In this document: in pieces, positions 42,037-47,220 of the stretch
How the letters are laid out: the number at the start of each line of letters is the position of its first letter
Numbering within the stretch: position 1 is the first letter of the stretch
Assembly: GCA_037481695.1 (NCBI GenBank)
Contig: JBBFLE010000003.1
Location: forward strand, 248,001-312,000
Length of the DNA stretch: 64,000 nucleotides
Reading direction: 5' to 3'
DNA from: a bacterium
Lineage (GTDB): Bacteria > Desulfobacterota > Desulfocorpusculales > Desulfocorpusculum
Program-made: the position numbers and the translations under genes
Notes under the pieces: generated by a model
Database searches by the model: none
What the model was told of the DNA's origin: nothing
What the model saw: only the letters and a program-made list of their open reading frames with translations

Positions 42037-43152
42037 TCACTTGGGAACAGAGGCTTGGCTTTTGGCCCGAAGCCGCTCGATGGCCAAGCGGACGCTCTTG
42101 CCCAACCTTTCGATGGCCTGAGCCAGATCCCCTATCTCATCCCTGCGTTGCCTTCCTGGAATTTCACCCCCGAATTTTCCCAAGCTCATCTGCTCTGCCA
42201 CCACGGTCAGGCCGCGGATGGGTCCGGCCAGCCTCTGGGAAAAAAGATAGGCAATCAAGATCACCAGGATGACCGTCACCCCTAGCATTATCAAAGCTCT
42301 TTGGTTCGCCTCCCTTACGGGGGCGTAAGCTTCCTGGCGATCCTGCTGGGTGACCAGTGTCCAGCCATGGGAGGTCTTCTGCACCACGGCCAAAAACTCT
42401 TTGTCCCCCTGATTGAAACTCACCGTCTTCTTGCCCTGATTGGGTCTGGCTGCAAAGGCCGGGTGTCCACTTAGATCCTTTCGGGACTTGGTCATTTCCT
42501 CATCAGGGTGGGCAATCACGAATCCGCCTTCATCCAGAAGAAAGGCAAAGCCGGTTTTCCCGATACGTAAGTTGGCTATTTGATCTGTAAGATCTGTCAG
42601 ATGCATGGCCATGGCAATGACACCCTGGATCTTCTGTTGGGATCCTGGCCCGGCCGCAAGAATCGGAGCTGCTATTATGAGGGCAGGCTTGCCAGTAGTC
42701 CTGCCGATGAGAACTTGAGTGGTCATGGGAGCTCCGCTGACCACATCTTTTACATATTTTCGGTCCCTGTAGTCTAGAAGCTTGCCGTCATCGCTCCTGC
42801 CTACGTTCATGCCCTCCAGGTCCGTGGTGAAGACCAGATAGCTCCATTTGTACTCGTTCAAGATGGTCTTTAGGACAGGATCCTGCCTTTCCCTTTTCAT
42901 TGACCTTATCTCTTCCAGGGCTCCGTTTTGGTAAAGGGCTTTCACATGCATGCCCACCCAGTCATCCACACGGGCGGCCAGCTTGTCCGAAGCCGCAACC
43001 AGGCGCTCTTCTATGACCCGGGAGAGGTCTTCCACCGAGTAACGGTAACTTACATACCAGATGGCCCCTAGAGGCACGAGGGCCACTATCAGCATGGCCA
43101 ACAAGATCTTATGAAAGATTCTCCATCGTAACCCTTTACTTTTCTCTCCCAT
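42037..43152 (-). CDS. dCACHE-HAMP membrane receptor without output domain
   Basis: The 371-residue protein has an N-terminal transmembrane helix (ILLAMLIVALVPLGAIWYV), a periplasmic dCACHE sensor of about 240 residues (YVKDVVSGAPMTTQVLIGRTTG, GKTGFAFLLDEGGFVIAHP), a second helix (LIMLGVTVILVILIAYLFS) and a HAMP domain (LAGPIRGLTVVAEQMSLGKF). It ends about 20 residues after HAMP, with no methyl-accepting, kinase, GGDEF or phosphatase domain. It presumably signals through a separate partner. AGGAGGAAACAC precedes the ATG. It is the last gene of the PATAN/roadblock cassette, 182 bases after the preceding gene. Confidence 0.85.
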   Translation of the reverse strand: MGEKSKGLRWRIFHKILLAMLIVALVPLGAIWYVSYRYSVEDLSRVIEERLVAASDKLAARVDDWVGMHVKALYQNGALEEIRSMKRERQDPVLKTILNEYKWSYLVFTTDLEGMNVGRSDDGKLLDYRDRKYVKDVVSGAPMTTQVLIGRTTGKPALIIAAPILAAGPGSQQKIQGVIAMAMHLTDLTDQIANLRIGKTGFAFLLDEGGFVIAHPDEEMTKSRKDLSGHPAFAARPNQGKKTVSFNQGDKEFLAVVQKTSHGWTLVTQQDRQEAYAPVREANQRALIMLGVTVILVILIAYLFSQRLAGPIRGLTVVAEQMSLGKFGGEIPGRQRRDEIGDLAQAIERLGKSVRLAIERLRAKSQASVPK

Positions 43153-43334
43153 GTGTTTCCTCCTGAGCCCATAGGTGTTTATTGGATGAGAGCTGCCTGG
43201 AATCCGTCAAGAACTGGCCTGCTTCGCACAACTCCCTGTGTCTTGCATCCAAAAGACCTTCCCAAGCGGGATTCCTAGATTTTCTTAGGGTGAGACATAT
43301 GCCGATCATCGGACTTTTTGGAAGCAAAATCCCA

Positions 43335-44138
43335 TCAAGAGAGTCTTTCTTTTGGGCTGGGGATACTTTGTATCACTCCCAACATGGCTCTTTGGAATTC
43401 CACCCTGGCTGGCTCCTCTTCTATGAGATCCGAGATTCTTTCCACAAGAACCGGGAGGTCCTCGCGATTCAGGTAATCCAAATTCATACCCATCTCCCCC
43501 AAAGTATCCTGAATTATCACAGGAGCTATGGGTCCGATTTGTGCGGCCAAGAGCTCTTCCATCTCGCCCATAAACCTCTTGAGCAAAGTTGGATCCAGGG
43601 GTTTTTGAGCAGACACCATCTTAATTATTCGGCGGTTGGCCAAGTGAGCCAAAACCCTGCTCACGGAGAATTCGTTGGCCTTAAGGGAGAGGCAGATGTC
43701 TTTGACAGAGTTTCGGCCATTGACCAATGCCAGCACCTTCCAGAGCTTACTGTCAACGCTCACCCGGCCTGCCTGTGTGTCGGCCGAAAGGGCGAAGACT
43801 GCTTCAGGGCCAGGCACCAGGGCCCTGATCTTGCGGATTTCCTCATGCCTTTCCTCTAAGAAGGAGAGGATGTGGTTGGTGTCCTCTTCCACATCCACCA
43901 CCAGGCTCTCCACATTCTCGTAAAAGCTCAAGGAGATGCTCATCCAGTTGCTCAAAAATTCCAGGGCCTCCTTTCCCCTGAGCCTTCCAACCTGGCAGTG
44001 AACAATGCGACCGTCGCTAAGCCCTATGACCCCTTCCCGGCCTGGCCAATGGTTCACCTGAAGCCTCCCGGAGCGGCCCTCTGCCACGAGTTTTTTTAGA
44101 GTTTCGTAAAGGCTTTGTGACCCAGGTTGCACTGCCAT
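43335..44138 (-). CDS. PATAN (DUF4388)-winged-helix protein
   Basis: The product has 267 residues. The N-terminal PATAN/DUF4388 domain (SLYETLKKLVAEGRSGRLQV, GVIGLSDGRIVHCQVG, GKEALEFLSNW) is followed by a winged-helix-like segment (LWKVLALVNGRNSVKDICLSL, EFSVSRVLAHLANRRIIKMV). A helical C-terminal domain (about residues 185-260) resembles the tails found in such proteins. PATAN proteins act in response-regulator and gliding/pilus signalling in cyanobacteria and delta-proteobacteria. GAGGGGTGGGATCTC precedes the ATG. It follows the roadblock-like gene by 29 bases. Confidence 0.78.
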   Translation of the reverse strand: MAVQPGSQSLYETLKKLVAEGRSGRLQVNHWPGREGVIGLSDGRIVHCQVGRLRGKEALEFLSNWMSISLSFYENVESLVVDVEEDTNHILSFLEERHEEIRKIRALVPGPEAVFALSADTQAGRVSVDSKLWKVLALVNGRNSVKDICLSLKANEFSVSRVLAHLANRRIIKMVSAQKPLDPTLLKRFMGEMEELLAAQIGPIAPVIIQDTLGEMGMNLDYLNREDLPVLVERISDLIEEEPARVEFQRAMLGVIQSIPSPKERLS

Positions 44139-44167
44139 GAGATCCCACCCCTCCCACAGAGTTTGTT

Positions 44168-44629
44168 TCAGTGGCCAGGCCTCTTGAACAGCTTGGAGAA
44201 AATGCTCCCCTCAGAAGCCTTTGCCCCTGAACTCGGAAAGACCTTTTGGACCCCCAAAGCCCTCCAACCATGCTCTTTCACATCCAGTGAAACCCTAAGC
44301 AAGGAGAGGCTGGTGGCTGGTTCTGCCACTAAGAAGAGATTTCTGTAAGAGGCTTCTTCCAGAGAAGGAGCCTCACCTGAGGGATCTGTATTCTGCCCTA
44401 TTCTTCTCCACAGAAGCAGAAACCTCGGGTAAAAAATGGCGATCTCTTTCAGCTCGGGCCTGCTCAAAAAAGGATGGTTCATCCATGTTTCAAGAAAACC
44501 AAACCAGCTAGAGTCCTCCCTTGCGTTCGGTAAAGAGCTCAAGATACGGCCATCAGGCCCTAAAACGCAAACCATTCGAACCCCATCCGTTGCGGCCAGA
44601 TCTGCAAGGGGAGATTCTTTTCCTGCCAT
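44168..44629 (-). CDS. Small roadblock/LC7-like protein
   Basis: The 153-residue soluble protein has the alternating pattern DGVRMVCVLGPDGRILSS, then a helix, then IFYPRFLLLWRRIG and YRNLFLVAEPATSLSLLRVSLDV. This resembles the beta-alpha-beta core of roadblock/LC7 (MglB-like) domains. The match is by shape more than by sequence, so the assignment is tentative. The C-terminus is basic and phenylalanine-rich (FSKLFKRPGH). The ATG at 44629 lies five bases after the upstream PATAN-roadblock gene stops; a TTG at 44650 would overlap it. Confidence 0.6.
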   Translation of the reverse strand: MAGKESPLADLAATDGVRMVCVLGPDGRILSSLPNAREDSSWFGFLETWMNHPFLSRPELKEIAIFYPRFLLLWRRIGQNTDPSGEAPSLEEASYRNLFLVAEPATSLSLLRVSLDVKEHGWRALGVQKVFPSSGAKASEGSIFSKLFKRPGH

Positions 44630-44634
44630 CAGCC

Positions 44635-45402
44635 TCACCCCTGTTCCCAATGAAGGATCATCTCTCGGCGGAGTCCAACAATGTCGATTCCTTTTTCCAC
44701 CTCTACTGCGGCCACAAGGTCTCCCCCCAAGCTGGCCAAAAGCCAGTTCCTGCCCTCCAGGACCAAAGAGAGCATCAGGGGTTGCCCACCGCTATCCGGA
44801 GGAGCCATCTGGCGGGCTGCTCCCAGCACCTCCCACATTATCCTGAACCAGCTCAGTAACTTGGGCACGGGTTGTGCAGGGCAAAGGACCTCCCCGGCCT
44901 TGCCCACCAGGCAATTGCCCACCCCGGGGCGATCCAGCATGACCCTATGGAAACCCCTCAGCCTCAGCAGTTCCGAGGCCTGGGCTTGGCCTTTGGGGGA
45001 AGCTGGCTCCTGGCTCTGTGGGGGAGCGGCTTTGCGGTCCTCGATACGGGCCATGGCCTGGATCAAGAGAGCATGCCAGGGGACATCTATGGTCTCCATG
45101 GCCGGCCGACGCTCGGCATCCAGAAGCACCTCTCCTTCCACCCACCCCAATAGCTCCTCAAAAGCCTTTGCTCCTGCGACATTTCCCACCTGTGCGTGAA
45201 CTATGTTGCCGCCCCTTAGGAAGATTTCTCCGGCTTTCCCGCTGCAGCGAAGTTCCACCTTGCCGGTGAACCCGTTCATGGCAAGCATCTGAATCAGGTT
45301 GGGCAACTCGAGTCCTGCAAAGAGCCCTATGAATCCTTTTTTGGGGGATCCAGAATCCTGGGGCTGACTGGAGGCAAAGCCTTTTTCCGTGGGTTCTTTC
45401 AT
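44635..45402 (-). CDS. PATAN (DUF4388)-roadblock fusion protein
   Basis: The product has 255 residues. The PATAN domain spans about residues 24-110 (LPNLIQMLAMNGFTGKVELRCSG, AGEIFLRGGNIVHAQVGN, GAKAFEELLGW). A proline-rich linker then leads to a roadblock/LC7-like domain (FHRVMLDRPGVGNCLVGKAGEVL, LSLVLEGRNWLLASLGGDLVAAVEVE). In related bacteria roadblock proteins pair with Ras-like GTPases such as MglA, but none is in the window. AGGGGAGAT abuts the ATG. It is the first gene of a four-gene signalling unit and sits about 60 bases downstream of a strong sigma-54 promoter. Confidence 0.78.
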   Translation of the reverse strand: MKEPTEKGFASSQPQDSGSPKKGFIGLFAGLELPNLIQMLAMNGFTGKVELRCSGKAGEIFLRGGNIVHAQVGNVAGAKAFEELLGWVEGEVLLDAERRPAMETIDVPWHALLIQAMARIEDRKAAPPQSQEPASPKGQAQASELLRLRGFHRVMLDRPGVGNCLVGKAGEVLCPAQPVPKLLSWFRIMWEVLGAARQMAPPDSGGQPLMLSLVLEGRNWLLASLGGDLVAAVEVEKGIDIVGLRREMILHWEQG

Positions 45403-45471
45403 ATCTCCCCTGTCAAAGGCAAAGCATCAAATGTTGGGTCCGCACCCCGCGGCCCGCATCAGGGCATACTT

Positions 45472-45489
45472 ATGCAAATGCTTTGCCAA
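45472..45489 (-). promoter_or_regulatory. Sigma-54 (-24/-12) promoter of the PATAN/roadblock cassette
   Basis: On the minus strand the sequence TTGGCAAAGCATTTGCAT matches the RpoN consensus: TGGCA at -24 and TTGCA at -12, with the GG and GC doublets exactly ten bases apart. The start site would be near 45462, about 60 bases before the ATG at 45402. Transcription would then need an activator of the kind encoded at 55916-57511, though a link to that gene is not shown. Confidence 0.68.
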
Positions 45490-45605
45490 TTGTCAAGCAA
45501 ATTCTGTGTTAATTTCCATGGCCATGCCAAACCCTATGGACATCACCTCCAAAAAAATGGCAGTATCGTTGCTGTACAGATGCACCAAATCATGGAGGTA
45601 CTGAC

Positions 45606-46538
45606 ATGGGAAAGATCATCATCACGGCTGCCATCACCGGTTCTGTTCACATCCCCACCATGAGTCCTCATCTGCCTTTGACCCCCGAGCAGATCATACA
45701 GGACGCTGTCAAGGCCTGGGAGGCAGGAGCGGCCATAGCCCACATACACGTGAGGGATCCCAAGGATGGCAGGCCCAGTTCAGACCCCGAGCTTTTCTAT
45801 CGCGTGTGCAGAGGCATAAAAGAAAGATGTGATTTGATCCTGCTTCCCACCACAGGAGGAGCCATTGGCCAGAGCTGGGAGGAGAAGCTGGTCCCCATTC
45901 GAAAATTACAGCCTGAGATGTGTTCTTTTGACCCTGCCCCTTTCAATTTCGGTATCTTTCAGTTGGCAGGAAGGTTCCATCAATTCCGCTTTGATTGGGA
46001 AAAGGGCTATCTGGAGCAGTGCAGGAGAATAACTTTTGCTCCCACCTTCGATGACGACCTGAATTACGCCCGTACCTTTCTGGAATTGGATGTAAAGCCT
46101 GAATTCGAGATGTACGAACTGGGTCATCTCAATTACGTGACCTGGCTCATGGAAGAAGGCCTGGTCAAGAAGCCCCCTCATCTACAGTTCGTGTTCGGAC
46201 CCATGGTAGGCTGGATGCATCCCTCTGTGAAACACCTGGTCATGATGTACGAGGAAGCGGTTTCGCTTCTGGGGGAATGGAATTTCACCTGGTCCGTTGC
46301 TGGGGCAGGCCGCCACCAGATCCCCCTTGCAGCTACAGCCATGGCCATGGGAGCCCCCAACGTGAGGGTGGGCTTGGAGGATTCCCTTTACGCTGGGAAA
46401 GGCAAGCTTGCATCTTCCAGCGCGGAACAGGTGGCCATGGTGGTGCGAATAGCCAAGGAAATGAGTCTGGAGCCTGCCAGCCCGGCTGAGGCCAGGCAGA
46501 TCTTGGGTCTCAAGGGCCTGGACAAGGTGGCTTTCTGA
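45606..46538 (+). CDS. BKACE family beta-keto acid cleavage enzyme
   Basis: The 310-residue TIM-barrel zinc enzyme is of the DUF849/Kce family, which condenses a beta-keto acid with acetyl-CoA to give acetoacetate and a CoA ester. Zinc-binding His46 and His48 lie in AHIHVRDPKDGRP, at the same numbering as the characterised Kce enzyme. The third ligand glutamate is Glu258 in RVGLEDSLYAGKG, and PTTGGAIGQS forms the CoA loop. 3-Keto-5-aminohexanoate is the founding substrate, but the family is diverse. GGAGGTACTGAC precedes the ATG. It is divergent from the PATAN operon, with a probable terminator after it, so it is likely monocistronic. Confidence 0.9.
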   Translation: MGKIIITAAITGSVHIPTMSPHLPLTPEQIIQDAVKAWEAGAAIAHIHVRDPKDGRPSSDPELFYRVCRGIKERCDLILLPTTGGAIGQSWEEKLVPIRKLQPEMCSFDPAPFNFGIFQLAGRFHQFRFDWEKGYLEQCRRITFAPTFDDDLNYARTFLELDVKPEFEMYELGHLNYVTWLMEEGLVKKPPHLQFVFGPMVGWMHPSVKHLVMMYEEAVSLLGEWNFTWSVAGAGRHQIPLAATAMAMGAPNVRVGLEDSLYAGKGKLASSSAEQVAMVVRIAKEMSLEPASPAEARQILGLKGLDKVAF

Positions 46539-46779: not shown

Positions 46780-47220
46780 TTATGTTACATCCAGCCCCTC
46801 CCTTTGGAGCAATTCCAGGGCGATCCTCACGGCCCCGGCTATGATGGGAGGACATATCTCTGTGGGCAGCTTTCCGGGCTCTGCCTCCAATATGTCATCA
46901 CAATGGTTTCCAGGATATTGGGAAATAAGCTCTTCCTGGAATCTCTCCTCCAGTTCCTGGATCAGCATGTACATTTTGCCTTGCTCTATGCGGCCCTGGG
47001 ATGCAGTGGCTATGAGGCAGGCGGCTGCCGTCAAAGTCCCGCAGGTTGCTCCCATGAGCCCTTGGGCACCCACCAGGCCGCCCATGGCAGAAACCACCTG
47101 CGGCTGCTCGAGGCCCAGGTGACGCAGGCCAACATCCATGACTATCTGGCTGCAGAGGTTCCCCCTCTTGGAGGACTCCTTTACTTCCTGTGAAAGTTCC
47201 TCATCCCTCGGCACAGGCAT
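46780..47220 (-). CDS. C-GCAxxG-C-C family protein
   Basis: The product has 146 residues. Cysteine spacing and glycine-rich core (LCSQIVMDVG, GLVGAQGLMGATCGTLTAAACLI, then NHCDDI and ICPPII) follow the family named for its C-GCAxxG-C-C pattern, common in anaerobes and of unknown function. The GCA of the core is here GAQ, so one conserved cysteine is lost. The cysteines may bind a metal or cluster. GGGAGGGG precedes the ATG. It is transcribed downstream of the radical SAM gene, 63 bases after it, and may be co-expressed. Confidence 0.75.
   Translation of the reverse strand: MPVPRDEELSQEVKESSKRGNLCSQIVMDVGLRHLGLEQPQVVSAMGGLVGAQGLMGATCGTLTAAACLIATASQGRIEQGKMYMLIQELEERFQEELISQYPGNHCDDILEAEPGKLPTEICPPIIAGAVRIALELLQREGLDVT

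Follow-up and report, generated by a model that had tools for sequence, protein, structure and literature searches.

How does a receptor that ends directly after its HAMP domain pass on a signal, and to what? The question is raised by a four-gene cassette in a 64,000-nucleotide stretch (the window) of a Desulfocorpusculum genome (Desulfobacterota; assembly GCA_037481695.1, contig JBBFLE010000003.1, positions 248,001 to 312,000 of the forward strand). The cassette spans 42037-45402 on the minus strand of the window and is read in the order promoter, gene 1, gene 2, gene 3, gene 4. At a probability of roughly 0.6, it serves as the receptor arm through which sensory input enters an MglA/MglB small-GTPase polarity module for the control of type IV pili, with the HAMP domain signalling in trans to the PATAN and roadblock proteins encoded beside it. 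Protein contacts, direction of signal flow, ligand and effect on pili are proposals drawn from gene neighbourhoods and known systems. The four genes that a previous sequence-only reading had described were recovered on the minus strand in the order it gave:

45473-45488, minus strand: sigma-54-type -24/-12 element TGGCAAAGCATTTGCA, 71 bp 5' of gene 1
44635-45402, minus strand: gene 1, 255 amino acids, PATAN domain (DUF4388, PF14332) at the N-terminus, E=3.3e-14
44168-44650, minus strand: gene 2, divergent protein assigned to the roadblock fold; listed start TTG 44650, likelier ATG 44629
43335-44138, minus strand: gene 3, 267 amino acids, PATAN domain, winged helix and C-terminal five-helix bundle
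42037-43152, minus strand: gene 4, 371 amino acids, dCache_1 domain, second transmembrane segment, HAMP domain and short tail

Genes 1 and 2 overlap or abut, the candidate ATG at 44629 lying just past the gene 1 stop codon; 29 bp separate genes 2 and 3, and 182 bp genes 3 and 4. A search of the cassette region for RNA families found none.

The output-less receptor and its partner genes

Gene 3 is the common denominator of every cassette found. With a gene 3 profile and a full-length cut-off of E<1e-50, homologues were detected in 35 of 395 genomes of the phylum. Up to 20 kb was fetched around each locus, and all frames were searched with purpose-built profiles (G, L and f numbers denote genomes, loci and families). 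The sequence-only reading had staked itself on recurrence of the gene order in relatives, and the order does recur: among 38 gene 3 loci compared, a receptor of the gene 4 kind lies downstream in 34, and the roadblock gene lies ahead in 22. Named genomes yielded nothing with the gene 3 sequence of the window as query and 11 loci with a narrower alignment. The named carriers are metagenome-assembled genomes (MAGs) of Deltaproteobacteria and Syntrophaceae, and even L125, the named locus farthest removed (gene 3 identity 29%), keeps the gene 3-receptor pair.

Gene 4 matches the Pfam domains dCache_1 (E=2.4e-19) and HAMP (E=4e-8, residues 304-353), after which about 15-20 residues remain, without an output domain; the signalling domain of methyl-accepting chemotaxis proteins is not present after HAMP. 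Thirty-three of the 34 downstream receptors adjoin gene 3 and one lies 1.3 kb away; one receptor among them is interrupted by the end of its contig, and its second half opens a further contig of that genome (L025, L091). At L100 the output-less receptor lies just upstream of gene 3 instead. The tail motif S-x3-AIxRL is common to the receptors in several families of the phylum and is followed by no more than about 15 residues. The sensor parts vary, and gene 4 of the window matches its counterparts in G001 and G039 in the HAMP domain and tail only. Because the short end and tail are conserved across loci, the output-less state that the sequence-only reading had noticed is, as judged from these comparisons, a selected trait. 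Truncation or frameshift of the receptor was considered as well and is ruled out, since the end is conserved across loci and all frames are open. A Cache-HAMP receptor that is likewise output-less and has the same tail occurs as an orphan, away from any gene 3 (L126:8775-9773, G049:C23). At L028 and L029 of family f8, TRAP-transporter gene sets lie on both sides of the gene 3-receptor pair and an accompanying tandem PATAN/DUF2226-like protein, which hints at the kind of ligand sensed.

The PATAN assignment of gene 3 is borne out at the family level. Taken alone, gene 3 of the window reaches the PATAN profile at E=0.0013, below the cut-off; DUF4388 is matched by all 8 of 8 family members (best E=1.8e-22), and the N-termini of genes 3 and 1 align (P=1e-28). 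The AlphaFold2 model (pLDDT 85.3, pTM 0.66) places PATAN at residues 1-105, a winged helix at 112-176 and, in addition, a five-helix bundle at 183-262. In Foldseek, SEA/GATOR1 chains rank first, but at E=0.02-0.04 and low TM-score, and Pfam NPR2 covers the winged helix at E=0.09; this likeness may reflect just the common winged helix. Stand-alone proteins made of the winged helix and helical bundle also occur: one is encoded near mglB-mglA (L090:9805-10302, G314), and comparable proteins of 150-190 amino acids are found in other genomes.

For gene 2, the window member alone has no match in Pfam, and Robl_LC7 (Roadblock/LC7, PF03259) is weakly reached by 2 of 20 family members. The iterated profile of gene 2 drifted into MglB, and separate profile comparisons were used for this reason. 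The family profile finds PDB chains at a best E of 8.4e-5, the first 15 matches all being roadblock structures, and hhalign relates it to MglB at P=4.4e-6. Gene 2 is thus classed, at the family level only, as a predicted roadblock-fold protein, in agreement with the sequence-only reading; an AlphaFold model built from two sequences (pLDDT 50) is uninformative. Gene 1 had been read as a PATAN-roadblock protein. Its PATAN half stands, and homologues are present in G002 (47%), G001 (35%) and L107; its C-terminal half finds no support as a roadblock domain in a profile comparison limited to four sequences (P=0.4 against MglB, 0.03 against gene 2). PATAN-roadblock fusions are present elsewhere in the window genome.

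Linkage to MglA/MglB and type IV pili

Roadblock proteins act as GTPase-activating proteins (GAPs) or partners of MglA-type GTPases. MglA and MglB are absent from the cassette of the window, and mglB-mglA lie elsewhere in the same genome (C1:619-621k), in a cluster that encodes PilMNOPQ, a histidine kinase, a REC-PATAN-roadblock protein, MglB, MglA, CheW and a TPR protein; PilB/PilT-type ATPases are encoded in the genome too. The statement that no GTPase or kinase is present therefore holds locally and fails for the genome. The further proposal of a new, GTPase-free arrangement gives way to what looks like an input arm for a module of a type already known, since mglA is found elsewhere in the genome and, in other families, within the cassette run itself.

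Cassette and mglB share one gene run in four other families, and in three of these mglA is included (L030, L088 and L111; L097 with the split contigs L025/L091; L106). At L109, mglB of the cassette run stands at the end of a contig. In family f38 (L030, L088, L111) the run reads mglB, mglA, CheW-like, PATAN (gene 1-like), x, gene 2, gene 3, gene 4, and continues with a CheW-like gene and then a PilB-type ATPase. A gene for a class III (c3-type) cytochrome c lies between the receptor and the CheW-like and PilB genes of L030 (6476-6985). Families f11 and f95 show gene 2, gene 3, (gene 4), REC-PATAN, (x), mglB, mglA, and the f73 run (L105) ends with mglB, no mglA being detected in that 75% complete genome. 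Over the phylum, MglA is present in 30 of 35 genomes with full-length gene 3 versus 190 of 360 others (Fisher P=9e-5, shared ancestry ignored). The link to MglA-type polarity signalling that had been suspected is thus borne out by gene neighbourhoods.

PATAN genes have occasionally been found near mglA (PMC4316618), and the same source, citing Makarova 2006, notes them near mglA or mglB. In Myxococcus, PilB is sent to the active pole by MglA-GTP, and SgmX and PATAN proteins co-occur (PMC11580455); in Synechocystis, PilB1 is the presumed target of PATAN regulators (PMC7690835).

Sigma-54 elements

The element TGGCAAAGCATTTGCA matches 10 of 12 consensus letters, with the -24 TGGCA and -12 TTGCA cores intact and GG and GC kept; the earlier description 'near-perfect' is generous. 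The core pattern occurs 3 times in the window versus 0.82 expected, and the single-site case at the window is accordingly modest. The case becomes convincing because the elements are conserved in relatives. At least 10 of 12 letters are matched upstream of 14 of 36 cassettes, where dinucleotide shuffles predict 0.16; among control genes the figure is 7 of 312. Families f1, f8, f11, f73 and f95 are represented, and the 14 are not independent events, since many f8 members are closely related. At L106 and L124 the element lies at the likely true start of gene 2, and two f11 loci carry TGGTAN6TTGCT upstream. The window genome encodes RpoN, and the core TGGCA-N6-TTGCW has 50 exact matches in its 4.1 Mb, versus 4 for a reversed control pattern.

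A corresponding element precedes the unlinked mgl operon of the window genome:

L023:10079-10094 (G000:C1:622078-622093), minus strand: sigma-54-type element TGGCAAGGAATTTGCT, about 46 bp 5' of the REC-PATAN-roadblock/mglB/mglA/CheW/TPR operon

PATAN exceeds the cut-off at two loci only in this genome, the cassette and the mglBA operon, and both are preceded by the core element (chance about 4e-7). G046 likewise has sigma-54 elements at both its cassette (L029) and its mglBA operon (L127). On these patterns, sigma-54 control of the cassette is likely, and the common elements join unlinked loci into one probable regulon. Such control of pilus functions has a precedent, as Geobacter pilA is RpoN-dependent (PMC2725144). 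A sigma-70 promoter was sought too: a TTGACA just upstream is common to three f1 genomes, no good -10 accompanies it, and a scan of the region gave no excess. It is possible as a second promoter of the cassette.

Divergent from the cassette, across the same intergenic region, lies a metabolic gene:

45606-46538, plus strand: gene for a BKACE (beta-keto acid cleavage enzyme), sharing a 203-bp intergenic region with the cassette

A second sigma-54-like core element, TGGCAGTATCGTTGCT, lies in that region (45558-45573, plus strand), about 33 bp 5' of the BKACE gene.

Proposed signal route, alternatives and known systems

On the favoured reading, sigma-54 RNA polymerase with an enhancer-binding activator would transcribe the cassette, and probably the unlinked mglBA operon as well. 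The Cache domain of gene 4 would bind an extracellular ligand, and the resulting change would be relayed to the four-helix bundle of HAMP; adjacent cytoplasmic proteins, most likely the gene 3 protein with that of gene 2, would read the bundle's short conserved tail in trans. The products of genes 1, 2 and 3 might then act on MglA/MglB, either through the balance of GAP and guanine nucleotide exchange factor (GEF) activities or by recruitment to a pole, and the output of MglA/MglB would reach the PilB/PilM pilus base. As the gene set recurs in relatives, often beside MglA and pilus-motor genes, the cassette is probably an input that tells surface-crawling bacteria where their pili go. A bolder version, which is a long shot, sees here a class of split receptor for Ras-like GTPases of bacteria: the bare HAMP tail would act in trans on a complex of PATAN-winged-helix and roadblock proteins, and this complex would itself be a GAP or GEF for MglA. 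Its logic would be the counterpart of nutrient sensing on Rag GTPases by Npr2/Npr3 (longin-winged-helix subunits of GATOR1) and the roadblock Ragulator.

Several observations weigh against the input-arm reading. The cassette does not adjoin mglA in the largest families (f8, f32) or in the window, and no MglA was found in five genomes with gene 3 (G009, G139, G236, G318, G392; MAGs 75-97% complete). The sigma-54 element is absent at the cassette site in f32, f38, f99 and the sister genome G001. TRAP-transporter genes flank the f8 cassette, and the winged helix of gene 3 could bind DNA instead. The last two points lead to a membrane-tethered transcription switch, in which the receptor would hold or release the gene 3 protein, the winged helix would regulate nearby catabolic or transport genes and MglA would be uninvolved. 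The winged helix does resemble MarR/TrmB regulators and has a net charge of +5 in the window, the f8 cassette sits between TRAP operons, and the BKACE gene, with a sigma-54-like element of its own, shares the intergenic region of the window cassette. Yet the winged-helix charge has a median of 0 over 36 members and falls to -6, the metabolic neighbours vary by family whereas mglB/mglA and roadblock neighbours recur, and PATAN and roadblock are protein-interaction modules, so this switch is considered unlikely.

Still less probable is an input of the chemotaxis or kinase type, with the receptor joining an array via the CheW-like proteins of mgl operons or modulating the histidine kinase that these operons encode. 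At L030, L088 and L111 the cassette has CheW-like proteins on either side, at L023 and L127 they follow mglA, and a histidine kinase and a REC-PATAN protein occur in the same clusters; gene 4, however, lacks the MCP signalling hairpin, the part that binds CheW, and most cassette loci have no CheW or kinase of their own. HAMP receptors without an output are unusual, and a truncated, decaying chemoreceptor in a chance grouping of genes might be supposed. This is highly improbable, given a shared end and tail that span families and extend to the orphan receptor, a recurring gene order and intact frames.

Among known systems, the MglA/MglB/RomR module of Myxococcus xanthus (SgmX, FrzS, PilB) has parallels in the window genome: canonical MglA and MglB encoded next to type IV pilus genes, a REC-containing partner and a TPR protein. 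Input there is from the Frz chemosensory system, whereas here a dedicated output-less Cache-HAMP receptor comes with PATAN and roadblock genes and a sigma-54 element. In the actinobacterial conservon (CvnA-D), a single operon encodes a membrane receptor with HAMP, an MglA-type GTPase, a roadblock protein and a small protein whose function is unclear (PMC13343842); the logic, from receptor through roadblock protein to GTPase, is similar. CvnA has histidine-kinase parts, whereas gene 4 stops after HAMP; the present cassette has PATAN proteins, and in the window genome the GTPase gene lies at another locus. Among Pfam matches of the cassette proteins there is none to DUF742, presumably the name of the CvnC-type domain. 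The PATAN response regulators of cyanobacterial phototaxis (PixG, PixE, LsiR, PatA) likewise connect to the type IV pilus motor through PATAN as adaptor (PixE-PilB1, PMC7690835), but genes 1 and 3 have no receiver domain, gene 3 adds the winged helix and helical bundle, and the receptor is a separate protein. With methyl-accepting chemotaxis proteins, gene 4 shares the Cache sensor, transmembrane segments and HAMP domain; it lacks their methylation helices and kinase-control hairpin.

In a literature search that covered few subscription papers, no description of the set of gene 2, gene 3 and output-less receptor or of its sigma-54 elements was found, nor a paper that links DUF4388 to MglA or one that treats output-less HAMP receptors in this setting. 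What appears new is the conserved output-less receptor, together with its gene set and sigma-54 control; the occurrence of PATAN near mglA is not. The signal route to MglA-type GTPases outside Myxococcus is largely open, and the cassette offers a short list of candidate partners. HAMP is usually studied fused to an output, and here is a natural family in which it seems to signal in trans.

Farther upstream, a gene for a C_GCAxxG_C_C redox protein lies at 46780-47220 of the window (minus strand), about 1.4 kb from the cassette with the BKACE gene between; in G002 such a gene precedes the cassette (L092, upstream of 2960).

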